A DNA stretch of 64,000 nt from Oscillospiraceae bacterium (lineage in GTDB: Bacteria > Bacillota > Clostridia > Oscillospirales > Ruminococcaceae), in assembly GCA_017414435.1 (NCBI GenBank), contig JAFQMN010000009.1, positions 62,001 through 126,000 on the forward strand, written 5' to 3'. The notes under the pieces are model-generated. The model saw only the letters and a program-made list of their open reading frames with translations, ran no database searches and was not told the DNA's origin. The translations under genes were made by a program, and so were the position numbers. Positions 15,433 to 25,091 of this stretch are shown one piece after another. The number at the start of each line of letters is the position of its first letter. Position 1 is the stretch's first letter.

Positions 15433-17238
15433 ATGAACTTAATAAAAAAAGGTAAAGGTGCGACTAAAAAAAATATGCCAAAACGAATAAATAGAGCAAA
15501 TATACAAAATGAAAAAGTGAGAGAAGTTTCGCAGAAGTCTTTGAAACAAGATAGGCATATTGCTAAAAACAAAAAAGCATTAAATATTATACCGCTTGGA
15601 GGAATTAATGAAATAGGGAAAAACATGACCGTGATTGAATATGGCAATGATATGTTTATTGTAGATTGCGGCCTTGCGTTCCCGGATATGGATATGCCGG
15701 GTGTTGATATTGTTATACCGGATTTTACGTATCTTGAAAAAAATGCATCAAAGATAAAAGGTATAGTACTTACTCATGGGCATGAAGACCATATAGGAGG
15801 GTTATCGTACTTATTAAAGAAAATAAATGTGCCAGTTTATGGTACACTTTTAACAATTAGCTTAGTTAAAGGTAAGCTAAGCGAAGCAGGTATATTACGA
15901 ACTTGCAAACTTAATGTGGTAACAGCGGGCGATGTAGTTAAACTAGGTTGCTTTAATGTTGAATTTATTCACGTGAACCATTCCATTCCGGATGCATGTG
16001 CATTAGCAGTACACACACCGATTGGTATTTTGATTCATATGGGTGATTTTAAAGTAGATTATACGCCGATTGAAGGGAAAGCAATTGACCTTGCACGTTT
16101 TGGCGAGCTCGGCAGGAAAGGAGTACTTGCTTTACTTTCAGATTCCACAAATTCAGAGCGAGTTGGAGTTTCTCCGAGTGAACAAACCGTGGGAGATTCG
16201 TTTGAAAAATTATTTAAAAAAGCGGCAGATAAACGTTTGATTATAGCTACTTTTGCATCGAATATTCATAGAATAAAACAGATAGTGAAAGCGGCAGAAG
16301 ATAACAAGAGAAAAGTTGCGGTTTCTGGCCGAAGCATGATTAATGTTGTGGCTACAGCAATAGAGTTAGGGTATATTAAACCTAAGGCTGGCACTATGAT
16401 TGACATAGACAAGGCAAGTAAATTCAATGGCAATAATATTGTGATAATCACAACTGGCAGTCAAGGAGAGCCGCTTTCTGCACTGCGAAGAATGGCAAGT
16501 GGAGAGCATAAAAAGATAACGGTTAACAAAGATGATTTTATTATTATTTCAGCATCACCAATTCCAGGAAATGAGAAATATATTTATAGCGTTATAAACG
16601 ATTTAATGATGCTTGGTGCTGATGTTGTTTATGAAAGTATGTATCAGATTCATGTTTCGGGGCATGCTTACCAAAACGAACAAAAATTGATAATGAGCAT
16701 TGTAAAACCTAAATTTTTTATACCTGTTCATGGTGAATATAGACATCTTAAAAAACATGCAAGCACAGCGGAACAAATGGGTATTTTACCGGAAAATATT
16801 ATTATACCGGAGTTAGGGCATGTAATAGAAATTTCTAAGGATGAAATCAAGTTTGGAAAGACAGTTGCAGCAGGGAATATTATGGTTGATGGTATTGGGG
16901 TAGGCGATGTGGGAAGCATTGTTTTAAGAGACAGAAAATTGCTGGCTGAGGATGGTTTGATGGTAGTTACTGTGGTAATAAACCGTGAAGATTTTACTAC
17001 TTTAGCTGGGCCGGATATAATCTCTAGAGGGTTCGTTTATATGAGAGAATCGGAACAGTTAATTGACGAAGCACGGGGGGTGACAAAGGATATATTAAAT
17101 GAATGCAAGTTACAAAAGGTTAAAGAATGGAATAATATAAAAAACAAAATAAGAGAAGGGCTTTCGGATCTGTTTTATAAAAAAACAGGTCGATCACCTA
17201 TGGTGTTGCCAATTATAGAGGTTATAAATAAAAAATAA
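15433..17238 (+). CDS. rnj: Ribonuclease J
   Basis: Metallo-beta-lactamase/beta-CASP RNase with 5'-exo and endonuclease activity in mRNA decay and rRNA maturation. 601 aa. The zinc motif THGHEDHIGG, FIHVNHSIPDA, and beta-CASP motifs ISASPIPGNE and PVHGEYRHL are visible. The first ~45 residues form a basic Lys/Arg-rich extension before LNIIPLGGINEIGKN, longer than many homologues. Which paralogue (J1 or J2) cannot be decided. Next gene is a rubrerythrin. Confidence 0.96.
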   Translation: MNLIKKGKGATKKNMPKRINRANIQNEKVREVSQKSLKQDRHIAKNKKALNIIPLGGINEIGKNMTVIEYGNDMFIVDCGLAFPDMDMPGVDIVIPDFTYLEKNASKIKGIVLTHGHEDHIGGLSYLLKKINVPVYGTLLTISLVKGKLSEAGILRTCKLNVVTAGDVVKLGCFNVEFIHVNHSIPDACALAVHTPIGILIHMGDFKVDYTPIEGKAIDLARFGELGRKGVLALLSDSTNSERVGVSPSEQTVGDSFEKLFKKAADKRLIIATFASNIHRIKQIVKAAEDNKRKVAVSGRSMINVVATAIELGYIKPKAGTMIDIDKASKFNGNNIVIITTGSQGEPLSALRRMASGEHKKITVNKDDFIIISASPIPGNEKYIYSVINDLMMLGADVVYESMYQIHVSGHAYQNEQKLIMSIVKPKFFIPVHGEYRHLKKHASTAEQMGILPENIIIPELGHVIEISKDEIKFGKTVAAGNIMVDGIGVGDVGSIVLRDRKLLAEDGLMVVTVVINREDFTTLAGPDIISRGFVYMRESEQLIDEARGVTKDILNECKLQKVKEWNNIKNKIREGLSDLFYKKTGRSPMVLPIIEVINKK

Positions 17239-17251
17239 AGGGGAGTTTAGC

Positions 17252-17776
17252 ATGGAATTTAACCAAAGTAAGACATACCAGAATTTGCAAGCAGCTTTTG
17301 CTGGAGAATCGCAAGCAAGGAATAAGTACACGTATTTTGCATCTAAGGCATGTAAAGAAGGCTATAATAAAATTGCATCAATTTTTGAAGAGACAGCCGG
17401 TAACGAAAAAGAACATGCAAAAATTTGGTTTAAACTTTTAAATTCAGGTATTGGGTCAACAGAAGAGAATTTGAAGGCTGCAGCTGATGGAGAAGCTTAT
17501 GAGGCTGAGATTATGTATGTTCAATTTGCAAAGGATGCTAAGGCTGAAGGCTATGAAAATATAGCTGCACTTTTTGAAGAGGTTGGGCAGATAGAAAAGT
17601 CGCACAAAGAGAGATATGAACGTTTATTAGAACAAGTTAGAAATGGTACGGTATTTTCTAGAGAAAAACCGGTAATTTGGATTTGCAGCAATTGTGGATA
17701 TTCCCAAACTTCGGCAGAAGCACCGGATGAATGCCCAGTTTGTAGCCACTCAAAAGCTTATTTTTATTGTGAATAG
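17252..17776 (+). CDS. Rubrerythrin
   Basis: Non-haem di-iron peroxidase protecting anaerobes against H2O2. 174 aa: ferritin-like domain with Glu-rich helices (AGESQARNKY, ETAGNEKEH, EVGQIEKSH) and a C-terminal rubredoxin-like knuckle with two Cys pairs (CSNCGY and CPVCSH). AAGGGGAG RBS. It ends a transcription unit: a strong hairpin terminator begins 20 bp downstream. Indicates an anaerobic lifestyle. Confidence 0.97.
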   Translation: MEFNQSKTYQNLQAAFAGESQARNKYTYFASKACKEGYNKIASIFEETAGNEKEHAKIWFKLLNSGIGSTEENLKAAADGEAYEAEIMYVQFAKDAKAEGYENIAALFEEVGQIEKSHKERYERLLEQVRNGTVFSREKPVIWICSNCGYSQTSAEAPDECPVCSHSKAYFYCE

Positions 17777-18072: not shown

Positions 18073-18089
18073 TTCGACAAAGTTCGACA
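18073..18089 (+). promoter_or_regulatory. Tandem Spo0A (0A) boxes
   Basis: Two exact copies of TTCGACA (18073-18079 and 18083-18089), the reverse complement of the 0A-box core TGTCGAA, start exactly 10 bp apart, so on one helix face. Tandem 0A boxes with this spacing occur in Spo0A-activated promoters such as spoIIG of Bacillus. They lie upstream of the radical SAM promoter, suggesting Spo0A control of the RiPP cluster; binding itself is inferred. Confidence 0.6.
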
Positions 18090-18104
18090 AAAATGGGGGG
18101 GGTA

Positions 18105-18132
18105 TTGAGAATTTTCTTGTAGATCATATACT
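18105..18132 (+). promoter_or_regulatory. Likely promoter of the RiPP operon, preceded by a G8 tract
   Basis: TTGAGA (18105-18110), a 16-bp spacer and TATACT (18127-18132) form a reasonable sigma-A promoter, leaving a leader of about 100 nt before the maturase ATG. A run of eight G (18095-18102), very unusual in this AT-rich sequence, lies between the 0A boxes and the -35 element. Length change there would alter spacing between activator and polymerase. Confidence 0.6.
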
Positions 18133-18238
18133 AAAAATATAAAAAATTAATGGATTGATAAGTGTTTTTGGATGTATATCTGAGCTTTAATATTAAAATA
18201 GTACGTTATATTTTTAAATTTTAGAAAGGAGCAACTTT

Positions 18239-19813
18239 ATGTCAAATAATTTAATAGATGAAGAGAGAGACGAATTAGTTCGTTGCGTAAATATGCACAA
18301 TGATGGGACGATATATCGACAAGGGAAGTTGTTTTCTACGGGCCAAAATTATTATTTGTATGATTTAGGAACAGGAAAAGTGATGATGTTAGATAATACA
18401 ATATACACTATTGTTTCTGATTTGCTGAATATTAGGAATAAAGTTACTTATGAAAACTTTTTATTAAATGATAAATATTCGTTGCAAGCTTTAAAAGAGT
18501 TAATGCAAATTTTTATAACAGAAAGTATTTTTCAAGCATATCCTATAGATAAACTATATAATAGCAGCCATTATGAATTTTTAGAGGACGAAATTAACAA
18601 TAACTTACAACAAATAATTTTAGAACTTACAGAGAAATGTAATTTAAGGTGTGAATACTGTGTTTATCAATCAAACTATAAAGTTTGTCGAGACTTTAGT
18701 CAAAAAGAAATGACACGGGCCATTGCAAAAAGGGCAATAGACTATGCGGTGCAACACGCAGGCGATAAAATTGCTGTAACGTTTTATGGTGGAGAGCCAT
18801 TACTTAAATTCAATTTAATGCAATGGTGTATAGAATATGCACGAAGCTGTTTTAAAGATAAAGAACTAACATTTTCTATTACAACTAATTTAACATTAGT
18901 AACAGAAGAAATAGCAAGCTATTTAGCTACGGTCCCTAATTTAAGTGTGGTTTGTAGCCTTGATGGGCCACGAGATATACATGATGTTTATAGAAAGTAT
19001 GAAAATGGTATGGGTTCTTTTGACAATGCGATGAAAGGATTAAAAATTTTAACGAAAGCTTTTAAGGACTCGAAAAATGTAATATCTTTTAATACGGTAT
19101 ATGCTCCACCATATGATATGGAGAAATTGGATGAAATATTAAAGTTTTTCAATTCATTAACTTGGTTGCCTCAAGGGACATCCTTTGTTATTACATACCC
19201 TAATTATGGTTCGGTAGATGACCGTAAAGAATATGAAAGATTAAAGAAAAATCATGAGAACGATATAGAAGAAAAAAAGGACAAATTTAATCCTATGTGG
19301 GCGTGGACTAAACAAATTATAGAAACAACAAAAGATTTAAATGCTAAAGAAACGCCAGTTTTTGTTTATAATCAAGTAAAATCGCTGTTAAATATTCATA
19401 AAAGATTTATTTCAGAAAAACCTTATCCTTTTTACCCATTTTTAGGGTGTTGCACACCGGGAGCAAGACGATTGTATGTTAGTACACAAGGGGAATTTTT
19501 TGTATGCGAACGTATAGGTGTTTCTCCTAGCATTGGTGATGTGTTTAATGGAATATCGATTGAAAAAGTAAGGAAACATTATGTTGATGAGTTCGTAGAG
19601 GCTTTTGAAGATTGCAAAAACTGTTGGGCTATTAGGCTGTGCCAGATGTGCTATGCCAATATCTATAAAGAAAATAGCATTAATAGAGATTTAATTAAAA
19701 AATTATGTGGATATAAAAAGGATGAAATTGAACGAGAGCTGGTACTATATCATTCTGTATATGAGCATACACCAGAAAAGCTAGATTGTTTAAATGATTA
19801 TACAATCACTTGA
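18239..19813 (+). CDS. Radical SAM/SPASM peptide maturase of a Cys-rich RiPP
   Basis: 524-aa radical SAM enzyme expected to modify the adjacent precursor peptides, most likely by thioether (sactipeptide/ranthipeptide-type) bonds. Residues 1-110 are an N-terminal domain that may bind the leader. The cluster motif CNLRCEYC supplies C134, C138 and C141; GGEP is at 184-187. The C-terminal SPASM region has Cys at about 404, 405, 423, 459, 462, 468, 471 and 490 for auxiliary Fe-S clusters. ATG start with AGAAAGGAG. Its last ~22 codons are duplicated between the two precursor genes. CcpM-type maturases are the family I would test first; exact chemistry is unknown. Confidence 0.9.
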   Translation: MSNNLIDEERDELVRCVNMHNDGTIYRQGKLFSTGQNYYLYDLGTGKVMMLDNTIYTIVSDLLNIRNKVTYENFLLNDKYSLQALKELMQIFITESIFQAYPIDKLYNSSHYEFLEDEINNNLQQIILELTEKCNLRCEYCVYQSNYKVCRDFSQKEMTRAIAKRAIDYAVQHAGDKIAVTFYGGEPLLKFNLMQWCIEYARSCFKDKELTFSITTNLTLVTEEIASYLATVPNLSVVCSLDGPRDIHDVYRKYENGMGSFDNAMKGLKILTKAFKDSKNVISFNTVYAPPYDMEKLDEILKFFNSLTWLPQGTSFVITYPNYGSVDDRKEYERLKKNHENDIEEKKDKFNPMWAWTKQIIETTKDLNAKETPVFVYNQVKSLLNIHKRFISEKPYPFYPFLGCCTPGARRLYVSTQGEFFVCERIGVSPSIGDVFNGISIEKVRKHYVDEFVEAFEDCKNCWAIRLCQMCYANIYKENSINRDLIKKLCGYKKDEIERELVLYHSVYEHTPEKLDCLNDYTIT

Positions 19814-19830
19814 AAGGAGGTGAGTAAAAT

Positions 19831-20070
19831 ATGGTGAAGAAGATAAACCCTTTCAACCGTATTATAGAAGATGCAAATACGCAGTTCCAAGCTTGCAATT
19901 GTAAATGTACAGACGTCGTGGCCTTTGTTGGAGCAAATGCATATGGAGCAGCATGGGTTTTCAGTGGTGATCAATCATGTAGAAAGTGTGGTGGCGGTTG
20001 TGGTTGTGGTTCAGGATCGCAAGGGCAGGCTGGGTTAGGAAGAAGTGCCAATGAGCCATTACATAGCTAA
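19831..20070 (+). CDS. Cys-rich RiPP precursor peptide 1
   Basis: 79 aa. Leader about 1-20 (MVKKINPFNRIIED...), then a core with seven Cys in two clusters: CNCKC near residues 22-26, a Cys-free middle containing GANAYGAAW, then CRKCGGGCGC, followed by a Gly/Ser/Gln-rich stretch and the end SAN(E)PLHS shared with precursor 2. The CxCxC...CxxC layout resembles hairpin sactipeptides such as ruminococcin C, an analogy only. Very strong RBS AAAGGAGGTGAG, 17 bp after the maturase stop. Confidence 0.9.
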   Translation: MVKKINPFNRIIEDANTQFQACNCKCTDVVAFVGANAYGAAWVFSGDQSCRKCGGGCGCGSGSQGQAGLGRSANEPLHS

Positions 20071-20163
20071 ATGAATACGATATCATTCTGTATATGAACA
20101 TACACCGGAAAAGCTAGATTGTTTAAATGATTATACAATCACTTGAAAGGAGGTGAGTAAAAT

Positions 20164-20424
20164 ATGGTGAAGAAGATAAACCCTTTCAACCGCATTATAG
20201 AGGATGTAAATACGCAATTCCAATATTGCAATTGCAAGTGCCAAGGTGAAGTGGGTCCTATTCCAGGTGTGGGAGCTGCATCAGCAAATGCATATGGAGC
20301 AGCGTGGGTACATTTTGATGAATCATGTAGGAAGTGCGGTGGTGGTTGCGGTTGTAGCTGTGGTTCAGGATCGCAGAGCAATAATGGACTAAATACTAGT
20401 GCGAATGTACCTTTGCACAGCTAG
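20164..20424 (+). CDS. Cys-rich RiPP precursor peptide 2
   Basis: 86 aa, paralogue of precursor 1 from a recent tandem duplication. The leader is nearly identical (two or three substitutions). The core has eight Cys (CNCKC and CRKCGGGCGCSCG), a longer middle segment rich in Gly/Pro (GPIPGVGAAS) before the conserved SANAYGAAW, and the same SAN(V)PLHS end. Identical RBS. Its stop codon lies inside a perfect hairpin (20408-20434). Confidence 0.9.
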   Translation: MVKKINPFNRIIEDVNTQFQYCNCKCQGEVGPIPGVGAASANAYGAAWVHFDESCRKCGGGCGCSCGSGSQSNNGLNTSANVPLHS

Positions 20425-20434
20425 TGCAAAGGTA
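20408..20434 (+). promoter_or_regulatory. Hairpin spanning the stop of precursor 2
   Basis: Perfect 11-bp stem TACCTTTGCAC / GTGCAAAGGTA with 5-nt loop AGCTA, containing the TAG stop. It has no T-run, so it is more likely an mRNA-stabilising or processing structure that lifts precursor over downstream gene expression. Role inferred. Confidence 0.6.
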
Positions 20435-20447
20435 TTGAATAGTTGAG

Positions 20448-20489
20448 CATGGAGAAAGTATGTTAGGTTCTAATATACTTCTCTCTATG
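20448..20489 (+). terminator. Imperfect hairpin before the peptidase gene (possible attenuator)
   Basis: CATGGAGAAAGTAT pairs imperfectly with ATACTTCTCTCTATG across a 13-nt loop and is followed by TATCTTTTT. It would act as a leaky terminator between the highly translated precursors and the peptidase/exporter genes. Confidence 0.5.
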
Positions 20490-20515
20490 TATCTTTTTGG
20501 GGTGAGACTTTTAAT

Positions 20516-21706
20516 ATGTACCATAGGTATATTTATAACAAAAAAGGCATAATAGATAAAGATGTAAAATATGCGCATATATATGCAATTATAAAAACAG
20601 GAGCAAATCGCGACCCTGTTTTAAAGAGAGGCCTTGCTCATTTTGTGGAACATATGAGTTTATCTTATGATAAATACAGAAGGAGCGACTTGTTAAAAAG
20701 TAGATCTCAAAAGCTAATATTACCAGATAACTATCTTTTTAGTGGGACAACAGATTATGACTATACAATTTTGAAAATAATGACAGATGATAATTTATCG
20801 AGAACTAAAGAGGCATTAATTTTATTAAGAGAGATGACAAAAATAACTTTTTACAAAAAATATTTTTTTGAAGCAGTGAGAAATGAGATTTTACTAGAAT
20901 ATGAACATAGATATGACAATATGATACAAACTCAAAAAGCTGTTTCTGTTTTGACTAATAATGATATAAATTACCTCCCAATAGGAACGATTGATAGTAT
21001 AAAATCCGTTTGTTTTGAAGATGTAATAGATTATGTAAAGCGTACTTATATGCCAGAGAATATATCTCTATTTGTAGTATCTTCATTTTCAAATGATGAA
21101 ATAAGTGCAATTATAGATGAAGAGTGGGAGGGAAATTTTGAAAACAGTCTTAATTATAAATTTTTTAAGTTAAATTCGAGTAACAGTAACAATAGTTATT
21201 ATGTATATTTTAAAAAAAGAAATTTGAATTTTTCGAGTGAAGAAAAAGCTATATTATTTTTATTTTTTCACTTACTCACTCAAGTTATAATAGAAGAATG
21301 CCGAATTTTAGGGTTAAAATGCGAGAATTTTAGAATAGTTAATAAGAATATATGTGATAAAAATGGTTTTATAGGTCTAAAGTTTAAATTGCCATACGCA
21401 GATTCAGAAAAAAGTGCCGAACTTGCGCTAAAGGTATATAATCGAATCAAACAAAGCACATTGGATAGGAAATTAATAAAGAATACTTTTAAAATATTAA
21501 CAAAAGAATTTAATAAAAAATTAAAAAAAACATTTGACGATATATTTTATTTTAGTTTGTATAACTTTGTTTATAATGAGTCAACAGCAAAACCTGAAAA
21601 GCAAGATTTACATTATTTGAAGAAAGATATTTTAAATGGGAATGCTTTTAAGAAACTATATAATATGTTTGAAAGCACTTTATATTTTTTTGTTAAAGGC
21701 AATTGA
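20516..21706 (+). CDS. M16-family (insulinase-like) zinc peptidase of the RiPP cluster
   Basis: 396-aa peptidase, probably removing the leader from the modified precursors. The inverted zinc motif HFVEH is at residues 42-46, and E124 lies 77 residues later, the expected spacing of the third ligand in HxxEH-X(69-77)-E. A single M16 pair of domains is present; no inactive partner subunit gene is adjacent. Lys/Asn-rich. ATG start with GGGGTGAG. It lies between the precursors and the exporter, whose start it overlaps closely. Confidence 0.87.
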   Translation: MYHRYIYNKKGIIDKDVKYAHIYAIIKTGANRDPVLKRGLAHFVEHMSLSYDKYRRSDLLKSRSQKLILPDNYLFSGTTDYDYTILKIMTDDNLSRTKEALILLREMTKITFYKKYFFEAVRNEILLEYEHRYDNMIQTQKAVSVLTNNDINYLPIGTIDSIKSVCFEDVIDYVKRTYMPENISLFVVSSFSNDEISAIIDEEWEGNFENSLNYKFFKLNSSNSNNSYYVYFKKRNLNFSSEEKAILFLFFHLLTQVIIEECRILGLKCENFRIVNKNICDKNGFIGLKFKLPYADSEKSAELALKVYNRIKQSTLDRKLIKNTFKILTKEFNKKLKKTFDDIFYFSLYNFVYNESTAKPEKQDLHYLKKDILNGNAFKKLYNMFESTLYFFVKGN

Positions 21707-21720
21707 AAGGAAGCTTTTAT

Positions 21721-23427
21721 ATGAAGCACAACGGGACAGTGTCGATAACATTTCGCACAATTATATTGTTGATAAAAATATCACCAATTTATTTCAGCAT
21801 TAATATACTTTTAAGTTTAGTTGTCAATTTAGCCCCTACCGGTTTATTAATTATTAATAAGATGCTGTTAGATAGTTTTGTTCAACTCTTTTGTGATTTT
21901 AGTGTTTTTAAAACCGTTGCGATGTGGTTGTGCTTCAGTTTGCTGGGAGACTTTGGTTATAGTTTGATGATAGAATTATTGTCTTACTTTCAAGCAATAT
22001 ATTCGGATTATATAAACAAGTGCACAACAGAGAAAATAATTGATAAAATAGAAGAATTACAATTAGAAGATTTTGACAACCCCAATTTATACAATGTTCT
22101 CCAAAAGTCATTTTATGAGTCAACTCCGAGATGTATATCTATGTTGAATGCTGTAACTGAAATGTTTGGAAAACTCATGAATTTATTCTTTGCAATCTCT
22201 TTGTTGAGCTTTACAAATATTAATCTAATTGTTGTGTACCTTATTTCTATAATACCTACCGTTTTGTTGAATATAAAAATTTTTAAGAAGTGGTTTAGTT
22301 TGTTTGAAGAACGCTGTGAGAAGCTGCGTTTTGTTGAAGTGCTAAAAACTATATTAATTAAAAATGAAAATTTGCAAGAAATAAAGACATATAATGTTAC
22401 TAAATTCTTAAAAGAGAAAATTAATAACATATATTCAACCAATGCAAGAGAAAATAAAAATGTACGTAAAAGTTTTATGTGGAAAACCAGTCTTACCAAA
22501 TTGTTAGAGCAATTTATTGCTTATTATGTTAAGTTGAAAATAATTTTATTTTCAATATCTACTAAAAGTACAGTTGGTACATTAAATATGTATATCTCGT
22601 TTGTAGATACTATAAAAAATGCAATTTTTTCAGTACTCACACAATTATCTTCGTTCACAGAAGATAGCTTATATATGAGAAGCTTATTTGAAATTTTAGA
22701 TATGAAAGGTGTAAACAAGACAAAAAAAATATCCTTCCATGGTGAGTTTAAAACTATTGAACTAAAAAATGTAAACTTTAAGTATAAAACATCATCTGAA
22801 TATGTACTAAAGAATCTTAATTTTACAATTGAGCAAGGCAAAATTTATGCAATATCTGGCCTAAACGGAGCAGGTAAAACAACTCTTATAAGATTATTAC
22901 TAGGATTATATAAACCTAATAAAGGGCAAGTTTTAGTAAATAGCGTAGATATAAATAAATATTCATCAGAATCTATTTTGAAAAATATAGCTTGTGTTTT
23001 TCAAACGTTCATCAAATATCCGTTAACTGTTAAAGAAAATATAAAAACGGGAACATGCTGTACAGATAATAACTTGTTAGAATTAATAAAAGAGGCCACA
23101 GAAATGGCAGGAGCTTCTGACTTTATTGAACACTTACCGAATCAATATGATACAATATTGCAAAAAGAGTGGTCTAATGGAGTTGAAATTTCTTTAGGAC
23201 AATGGCAAAAATTAGCAATTGCTAGAGCTTTTTTTAAGAAAGCAAATATTTATATATTAGATGAAGCAACAGCGTCGCTAGATGCTAAAACTGAGAAGAG
23301 TGTGTTAGACACTTTAAAAAATATGAAAGCAACTGTTATTATTATATCACATAAAGCAGAAGTGCTAAATATTGCAGATGAAATTGTAACTATCTGCAAT
23401 GGGGAAATAAAATTTACAAAAACATAA
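21721..23427 (+). CDS. ABC exporter (fused membrane and ATPase domains) of the RiPP cluster
   Basis: 568 aa. N-terminal ~330 residues are a six-helix type I exporter domain; the C-terminal ATPase has Walker A GLNGAGKTT near residue 380, signature ISLGQWQ (a variant of LSGGQ), Walker B YILDEATASLD and switch ISHKAE. No C39 protease domain, consistent with cleavage by the separate M16 peptidase. ATG at 21721 is chosen for the RBS AAAGGAAG; the open frame begins slightly earlier. Likely exports the mature peptides. No separate immunity gene is visible. Confidence 0.93.
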   Translation: MKHNGTVSITFRTIILLIKISPIYFSINILLSLVVNLAPTGLLIINKMLLDSFVQLFCDFSVFKTVAMWLCFSLLGDFGYSLMIELLSYFQAIYSDYINKCTTEKIIDKIEELQLEDFDNPNLYNVLQKSFYESTPRCISMLNAVTEMFGKLMNLFFAISLLSFTNINLIVVYLISIIPTVLLNIKIFKKWFSLFEERCEKLRFVEVLKTILIKNENLQEIKTYNVTKFLKEKINNIYSTNARENKNVRKSFMWKTSLTKLLEQFIAYYVKLKIILFSISTKSTVGTLNMYISFVDTIKNAIFSVLTQLSSFTEDSLYMRSLFEILDMKGVNKTKKISFHGEFKTIELKNVNFKYKTSSEYVLKNLNFTIEQGKIYAISGLNGAGKTTLIRLLLGLYKPNKGQVLVNSVDINKYSSESILKNIACVFQTFIKYPLTVKENIKTGTCCTDNNLLELIKEATEMAGASDFIEHLPNQYDTILQKEWSNGVEISLGQWQKLAIARAFFKKANIYILDEATASLDAKTEKSVLDTLKNMKATVIIISHKAEVLNIADEIVTICNGEIKFTKT

Positions 23428-23518: not shown

Positions 23519-23602
23519 GCGGATGTGGCGGAACTGGCAGACGCGCTAGACTTAGGATCTAGTGTTTTAAACATGGGGGTTCAAGTCCCTTCATCCGCAC
23601 CA
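23519..23602 (+). tRNA. tRNA-Leu (TAG anticodon)
   Basis: 84-nt class II tRNA: acceptor GCGGATG pairs with CATCCGC, anticodon stem CTAGA/TCTAG encloses CTTAGGA (anticodon TAG), an extended variable arm follows, the T-loop is GGTTCAAGTCC, and CCA is encoded. It has its own promoter and terminator. Confidence 0.96.
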
Positions 23603-23672: not shown

Positions 23673-25007
23673 TTATATTTTGAAGCTATCTTTATGTTCA
23701 TTTTTCCATTTTTTTATTGCTTCTAATCTCTCTTTTAATTTAATTTCTTTTCCTTGTGTACCAGGACGATAATATATTTTATTAATTAAAGATGAAGGCA
23801 AGCATTGCATGTTTGTTAATTTTTCTTTTGTATCATGTGCAAATTGATAACCTTTGCCATAATTCAATTCTTTCATTAATTTAGTAGGTGCATTGCGAAT
23901 TGCTAAGGGAACAGGCTCTGCAAGCATTTTTTTTGCATCTGAACTTGCTAGCATATACGCAACATCACATGAATTGGATTTAGGAGCTAATGACATGTAG
24001 ATCACTGCTTCTGCCAAGTGAACGTTGCATTCAGGCATGCCAATAAAGTTACAAGCGTGGTACACGTTAATAGCAACATTTAAAGCATTTGTATCTGCAA
24101 GACCAATATCCTCTGAGGCGAATCTTGTTATTCTTCTGGCAATATAAATTGGGTCTTCTCCTGCCTCTAGCATACGAGCAAGCCAATAAACTGCAGCGTC
24201 TGGATCGGAATTTCTCATAGATTTATGAAGTGCTGAGATAATATTATAGTGTTCTTCACCATTTTTATCATATAGCAGCGTTTTTTTAGTTAAAGCCTCT
24301 TCTAGTATCTCTTTTGATATGTTAATATTACCGTCTTCGTCGGCATTACAATTAATGACAAGCATGTCTAGTGCTGTTAAGGCATTTCGTGCATCTCCGT
24401 TAGCAAATTCAGCAATGATTTTCAAGTTGTCATCGGATATATTGACTTTTTGTGCCCCAAAACCGCGTTGGTCTTTTATGGCTCTTTTGAGAAGGACTAA
24501 TATATCAGTACTCGATAATTCTTTTAACACAAACACCCTACATCTTGAAAGTAAAGCGTTATTTACCTCGAAGGATGGGTTTTCTGTTGTTGCTCCAATT
24601 AAAACAATAGAACCTTTTTCTACAAATGGCAGAAAAGCATCTTGCTGCGCTTTGTTGAATCTGTGAATTTCATCAACAAATACAATTGTTTTAACTCCAA
24701 GCATTATATTATTTTCTGCATTTTCCATCACTTTTCTGATCTCTTTGATTCCAGATGTTACAGCTGAAAATGTAATAAATTCTGACTTTGTTTGTGAGGC
24801 AATAATTCTTGCAAGAGTGGTTTTACCCACACCGGGTGGACCCCAAAAGATCATGGATGGGATATGATCGCTTTCGATGATTCTTCTTAATATTTTTCCG
24901 TCTCCAACTAAATGCTCTTGCCCTATAAATTCATCGATGTTTTTAGGCCGCATACGATATGCTAAAGGTTCGGAGTAACTTGTTGCAAATAATGAAGGTT
25001 GGCTCAT
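23673..25007 (-). CDS. rarA: Replication-associated recombination protein A (AAA+ ATPase)
   Basis: RarA/MgsA family clamp-loader-like ATPase acting at stalled forks. 444 aa: N-terminal YRMRPKNIDEFIGQEHL, Walker A GPPGVGKTT, Walker B VFVDEIHRF, sensor 1 IGATTENPSF, then the C-terminal tetramerisation domain with ARRITRFASEDIG. The open frame begins with GTG at 25016, but that codon sits in the Shine-Dalgarno GAGGTGA, so ATG at 25007 is the start. Confidence 0.96.
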   Translation of the reverse strand: MSQPSLFATSYSEPLAYRMRPKNIDEFIGQEHLVGDGKILRRIIESDHIPSMIFWGPPGVGKTTLARIIASQTKSEFITFSAVTSGIKEIRKVMENAENNIMLGVKTIVFVDEIHRFNKAQQDAFLPFVEKGSIVLIGATTENPSFEVNNALLSRCRVFVLKELSSTDILVLLKRAIKDQRGFGAQKVNISDDNLKIIAEFANGDARNALTALDMLVINCNADEDGNINISKEILEEALTKKTLLYDKNGEEHYNIISALHKSMRNSDPDAAVYWLARMLEAGEDPIYIARRITRFASEDIGLADTNALNVAINVYHACNFIGMPECNVHLAEAVIYMSLAPKSNSCDVAYMLASSDAKKMLAEPVPLAIRNAPTKLMKELNYGKGYQFAHDTKEKLTNMQCLPSSLINKIYYRPGTQGKEIKLKERLEAIKKWKNEHKDSFKI

Positions 25008-25091
25008 TATATTCACCTCTTTTTATTTTATACAAAACAAAAATTATGTTTTTGAATAAATTCTTAAACGCCGACTTAGATTACTGGTAAA

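Follow-up and report, generated by a model that had tools for sequence, protein, structure and literature searches.

A probable, divergent ruminococcin C-type sactipeptide gene cluster in a 0.94-Mb Oscillospiraceae genome

The gene cluster and its setting

The window, a 64,000-nucleotide stretch of contig JAFQMN010000009.1 from an Oscillospiraceae bacterium (assembly GCA_017414435.1), carries a co-directional RiPP gene set at 18239-23427, delimited by checking of open reading frames and by motif and profile searches (Table 1). An earlier note, made from the letters alone, had read here a maturase, two Cys-rich precursors, an M16 peptidase and an ABC exporter free of a C39 domain, and all five of these open reading frames are present. 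Shine-Dalgarno-like sequences (GAAAGGAG, GAAAGGAGGTGAG, GAAAGGAAG) can be read 5' of the maturase, both precursor and ABC genes. On one side of the cluster lies a rubrerythrin-like gene (17252-17776; name assigned by eye), on the other a gene for tRNA-Leu (23519-23602). The G+C content of the maturase, peptidase and exporter stretches is 0.26-0.31, versus 0.33-0.38 in most of the surroundings, while the Gly/Cys-rich precursor stretch, unlike the rest of the cluster, is not lowered. As to the claim of a complete pathway, genes for precursor, maturase, peptidase and exporter are all there, but completeness is not proven, because no dedicated immunity gene was identified. Overall, the RiPP cluster is real and intact, and it is probably functional.

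Table 1. Features of the cluster, in window coordinates
Feature	Position	Strand	Evidence
RumMC-like peptide maturase (predicted RRE-type N-terminus, radical SAM, SPASM), 524 aa	18239..19813	+	NF035951, PF04055, Cys motifs
Precursor 1, 79 aa, 7 Cys	19831..20070	+	ORF, strong ribosome-binding site, leader and Cys layout versus relatives' profile
Stray copy of the maturase gene 3' end, tandem-duplication footprint	20072..20151	+	88% identity to maturase residues 501-524, with TGA; repeat D1
Precursor 2, 86 aa, 8 Cys, tandem duplicate of precursor 1	20164..20424	+	ORF, repeat, relatives' profile, syntenic homologue in sibling genome
Stable RNA hairpin followed by U-rich run	20447..20491	+	-23.5 kcal/mol, z -2.7; arms kept in sibling
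M16 family zinc peptidase, 396 aa	20516..21706	+	PF00675, HFVEH at residue 42, candidate third ligand Glu124
ABC exporter (permease-ATPase fusion), 568 aa, best start ATG 21721	21721..23427	+	PF00005, Walker A, signature

The maturase is the most informative member of the set. It matches PF04055 (radical SAM) in the Pfam search, its radical SAM motif CX3CX2C at residue 134 reads CNLRCEYC, and all seven SPASM cysteines are present, spaced CX13GX4CX35CX2CX5CX2CX18C, thus agreeing with the published RumMC spacing, CX13GX4CX36CX2CX5CX2CX18C (PMC6779426), except that one gap is one residue shorter. The best NCBIfam match is the RumMC model NF035951 (489.8 bits, model positions 5-508 of 510), followed by the models for CcpM (TIGR04068, 287.3 bits), lachnocin (180 bits), PapB (152 bits) and SCIFF (137 bits); the curated cut-offs of both the RumMC model (720 bits) and the CcpM model (500 bits) are missed. 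The full-length match to NF035951 suggests an N-terminal RRE domain, which in RumMC occupies residues 16-94 (PMC8188230). The highest identity to any relative is 40%, to the maturase of a RumMC-like locus in another genome (L017, genome G510), and a maturase tree, built without RumMC1/2 and the CA_C0660 neighbour, did not resolve the nearest kin. No relative of the maturase was found in a scan of viral contigs, and a phage collection returned distant radical SAM matches only, of at most 32% identity among the eight matches listed. Single-sequence AlphaFold2 models have a mean pLDDT of 43 for the maturase and 39 for the M16 protein.

The two precursors share one plan, MVKKINPFNR...CNCKC...CRKCGGGCGC(SC)...PLHS, the Cys clusters being CNCKC and CRKCGGGCGC in precursor 1 and CNCKC and CRKCGGGCGCSC in precursor 2. 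They are tandem copies spaced by 333 bp, and the duplicated segment includes the last codons of the maturase gene along with a ribosome-binding site; the displaced maturase C-terminus is encoded at 20072-20143. The stretch ANAYGAAW is common to both, with ANATGAAA at the same place in the copy of a sibling genome, and the PLHS end is present in all three precursors (two in the window, one in the sibling); both features are absent from the collected RumC-type precursors of other bacteria. The earlier note had proposed a search of precursor families, and its outcome is that no curated family takes in these peptides, every cut-off being missed. The only family with any match is CA_C0660 (NF035954; 16.3 and 18.3 bits, E 0.0077 and 0.0018, cut-off 60), while RumC sactipeptides (NF035950, cut-off 40 bits) gave no match at E up to 1, nor did the Apre_1838 (TIGR04067) or CLI_3235-type (TIGR04065) models match. 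Precursor 2 has no match in PDB or among plasmids, and neither precursor has a PHROG match. When a profile was made from seven precursors encoded beside RumMC-like maturases, with the window sequences left out, the two precursors scored 27.2 and 27.6 bits with no composition correction, a score reached by none of 2000 shuffles of each, and 12.3 and 9.0 bits with the correction, reached by 1 and 4 of 2000 shuffles, respectively. They were not among the hits when this profile was run genome-wide, and support for this kinship is therefore modest. From sequence, the precursors appear to be true though remote kin of the RumC, CA_C0660 and Apre_1838 clan, the likeness lying in the leader and the Cys layout.

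The M16 protein passes the gathering score of PF00675 (25.8 versus 22.3 bits), its zinc motif is intact, its Glu124 was aligned by eye with a Glu of the M16 protein of L017, and its sequence matches in PDB are PqqL and other M16 proteins. L017 is the one other RumMC-like locus with a clear M16 gene adjoining the maturase gene, and no paper linking RumC with M16 peptidases was found in a literature search. M16-like proteins with HLLEH at two further loci (L019 and L020) were not counted, having no Pfam M16 support. The exporter matches PF00005 at 110 bits, with Walker A GLNGAGKT and signature ISLGQ, and no C39 peptidase domain was found in it by the Pfam search. The hairpin that follows precursor 2 might hold the level of precursor RNA above that of the peptidase and exporter RNA, as a possible leaky terminator or a processing site, the case for such a role being weak since the terminator scan did not list this hairpin.

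Relatives, a decayed sibling copy and other loci of the genome

Relatives of the maturase are sparse. At the level of the class, matches to NF035951 of 366-540 bits occur in 4 other genomes among the 391 sampled, with one more in the phylum; at the level of the order the window's own genome is the sole match among 295 sampled, and at the level of the family matches are confined to the two genomes of the window's genus (148 sampled). With such a distribution in order and family, the cluster likely reached the genus by horizontal transfer. Plasmid-encoded relatives of the maturase in Sarcina, Paraclostridium and Anaerococcus adjoin annotated precursors of Apre_1838-family sactipeptides or a putative bacteriocin precursor. 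The precursors of relatives begin with MKLVNPLGR, MKIINPIGR, MKFINPLGR, MLKVRNPYQR or MLKIMNPYQQ and have, after the leader, the same layout as in the window: CxC, a stretch free of Cys, another Cys block and a tail again free of Cys. Two of the related loci have peculiarities of their own. In L017 (5494-8943) the precursor is apparently split, its N-terminal half lying 5' of the maturase gene and its C-terminal half 3' of the M16 gene, with similar sequence flanking both breaks, as if the maturase and M16 genes had been inserted into the precursor gene or a rearrangement had taken place. The RumMC-like locus L019 (G513) lies beside apparent prophage genes (endolysin- and tail-like open reading frames, by eye), which hints at carriage by a mobile element.

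The second genome of the genus, a dairy-cattle rumen MAG (G087, apparently the same genome as L009), carries the cluster at the same genomic place, with one precursor. Its maturase gene has two in-frame stops, TGA for CGA (Arg) and TAG for CAG (Gln) of the window, its M16 gene has a 1-base frameshift, one A being lost from a run, and its ABC gene has an in-frame TAA and is also broken across contigs, one contig ending inside the gene and another beginning at that point with some 140 bases unlike those of the window. Both flanking genes chosen for comparison are intact: the rubrerythrin-like gene and, at 15433, a gene for a 601-aa protein (RNase-J-like by eye). An alternative genetic code was considered for the stops in the maturase gene and set aside, given the frameshift and the TAA alongside them and the intact flanking genes. 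Synonymous divergence between window and sibling is low in the maturase gene (0.10), the M16 gene (0.08) and the first part of the ABC gene (0.10), and higher in the last part of the ABC gene (0.30), the precursor (0.37) and these flanking genes (0.39-0.50). As the central part is far less diverged than the flanks, recombination of this part is suggested, and the plainest reading is that the cluster predates the split of the two lineages, its central part being later exchanged between them and then decaying in one; the pattern in the sibling may also be an artefact of MAG assembly. Intact and broken copies within one genus offer a natural comparison for the gain and loss of such a trait. The sibling differs at two further points. 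The first is the start of its contig G087:C10 (L047), which falls within the ABC gene and has a CCACGACTTTAGTCGTG-type hairpin; this hairpin resembles the end of an IS200/IS605-type element and may mark an insertion into the exporter gene. The second is the 447-aa gene that follows tRNA-Leu in the window (23673-25016; by eye, an MgsA/RarA-like AAA ATPase), which the sibling lacks, a different sequence of about 385 bases standing instead.

The window's genome (935418 bases, 98% complete) has about nine radical SAM RiPP loci, the window's included, the others being L033, L034/L035 and L036-L041. Of these others, three have a CXXX-repeat maturase and two a lachnocin-like one, both of the latter with a subtilisin-like open reading frame (by eye) and one of them divided between two contigs; the rest have a SCIFF maturase (638 bits), a CcpM-like maturase and a Clo7bot-like maturase (577 bits against a cut-off of 600), the last accompanied by several short peptides of the MKYIVEPE type. 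At L033, a Cys/Ala/Gly-rich precursor-like peptide (1634-1864; MNDLKIIEEIELQESDEIAGCNCLGCAVGVACVACAGCLACVFPPAAA...) lies beside the CcpM-like maturase and a second radical SAM/SPASM-like protein. Such a number of RiPP loci in so reduced a genome is remarkable, and perhaps more surprising than the window cluster.

Proposed product and competing readings

While the class of the cluster had been called uncertain in the earlier note, the maturase and the precursor layout now point to the ruminococcin C, CA_C0660 and Apre_1838 group of sactipeptides. Judged from sequence, the cluster is most likely a divergent variant of the RumC-type clan and not a new class, its product being a sactipeptide bacteriocin whose thioethers form two nested hairpins. 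It is filed as a divergent variant and not as a member of the RumC family because every curated cut-off is missed and because the precursors have 7-8 cysteines versus 4. In other words, machinery predicted to work in the RumC manner is well supported, while membership of the RumC family fails on the curated cut-offs. The same departures, precursors below every family cut-off and 7-8 cysteines instead of 4, make a new linkage pattern and a new product, as the earlier note proposed, plausible. For the explanation as a whole, a ruminococcin C-type sactipeptide system including leader removal by the M16 peptidase and export, we would put the probability at roughly 0.7.

In such a system, the N-terminal domain of the maturase would bind the precursor leader (MVKKINPFNR...), and the enzyme, using SAM and its SPASM clusters, would join Cys thiols to alpha carbons of residues C-terminal to them, a linkage that we infer solely from the nearest characterised maturase. 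In RumC1, the bridges to alpha carbons are Cys3-Asn16, Cys5-Ala12, Cys22-Lys42 and Cys26-Arg34, resulting in two hairpins (PMC8172795), and RumMC2 starts with the inner bridge of the second hairpin (PMC8188230). By analogy, CNCKC would be linked into the Cys-free, A/N/G-rich middle to give the first hairpin, and CRKCGGGCGC(SC) into the polar tail to give the second. The M16 peptidase would then remove the leader, a role that fits because the exporter lacks C39, the domain that cuts leaders in other exporters, and the ABC protein would export the product, which comes in two variants from the duplicated gene and would most likely act as a bacteriocin on Gram-positive neighbours in the rumen. In a bolder version, every one of the 7-8 cysteines would be thioether-linked, so that the two hairpins would be multiply nested and hold nearly twice as many crosslinks as RumC, and the dedicated M16 enzyme, not trypsin, would cut off the leader; this appears doubtful though conceivable. 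Sactipeptides covered by a review generally carry 1 to 4 thioethers (PMC8326336), and a product with all of its cysteines linked would be more heavily crosslinked than these.

The competing readings concern the linkage, the peptidase and the state of the cluster. The same kind of enzyme could place thioethers at beta or gamma carbons, as SCIFF and PapB enzymes do, so that this would be a ranthipeptide system whose product may be a signal and not a bacteriocin; clostridial Cys-rich peptides with radical SAM enzymes often are ranthipeptides, the PapB and SCIFF models also match the maturase, and no immunity gene was identified. However, the RumMC model, whose characterised member links alpha carbons, scores over three times higher, and in leader and CxC layout the precursors resemble the RumC-type clan, making this reading unlikely. 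M16 enzymes often degrade small peptides, and the M16 and ABC proteins might thus give immunity or degrade foreign peptides, the more so as no separate immunity gene was seen. In that case a different protease would remove the leader, much as RumC depends on trypsin for leader loss and activation (PMC6779426). The few basic residues between the precursor leader and the first Cys, the position of the M16 gene in the operon and the exporter devoid of C39 all argue against such a division of labour, which we regard as rather improbable.

The last reading, of an inherited relic on its way to being lost, with no functional peptide any longer made in the genus, takes its strength from the sibling, where maturase, M16 and ABC genes are all disrupted and unrelated sequence stands at the contig end inside the ABC gene. 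Against it, every gene of the window is intact with all motifs, and dN/dS is 0.18-0.20 for the maturase, precursor 2 and ABC genes, though 0.52 for M16, values that include changes on the decayed side; we consider it very unlikely. If the ruminococcin C-type reading holds, the range of RumC-like double-hairpin sactipeptides would come to include a rumen bacterium whose genome measures 0.94 Mb, in a form with more cysteines and possibly a leader peptidase of its own.

Comparison with known systems

The closest known system is ruminococcin C of Ruminococcus gnavus (RumC1-5, RumMC1/2), whose maturase model is the nearest one and whose SPASM spacing is almost the same as here; both systems have precursor copies in tandem, an ABC exporter and two Cys blocks, a Cys-free stretch coming after each block. 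The differences are in the cysteines, 7-8 in the window precursors versus 4 in RumC (as CxC and CxxxC), in the single maturase versus two, in the M16 peptidase within the cluster, in the immunity gene, none being identified here, and in the scores, with the maturase under the NF035951 cut-off and the precursors unmatched by NF035950. Another likeness is to the CA_C0660 family (NF035954, putative sactipeptide bacteriocins) and the Apre_1838 family (TIGR04067), whose precursors also adjoin RumMC-like maturases and share the leader K-x-[IV]-N-P-x-x-R, CxC and a CxxCGCxC-like second block; the window precursors, however, are longer, with CxCxC, CxxCxxxCxC(xC) and the PLHS end. The CcpM maturases (TIGR04068), found with CLI_3235-type peptides, are related (287 bits) but under the cut-off of 500. 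The SCIFF and PapB ranthipeptides are likewise clostridial, Cys-rich and served by radical SAM/SPASM maturases, but the window maturase reaches just 137-152 bits with their models, and the genome holds a separate, true SCIFF maturase (L036, 638 bits).
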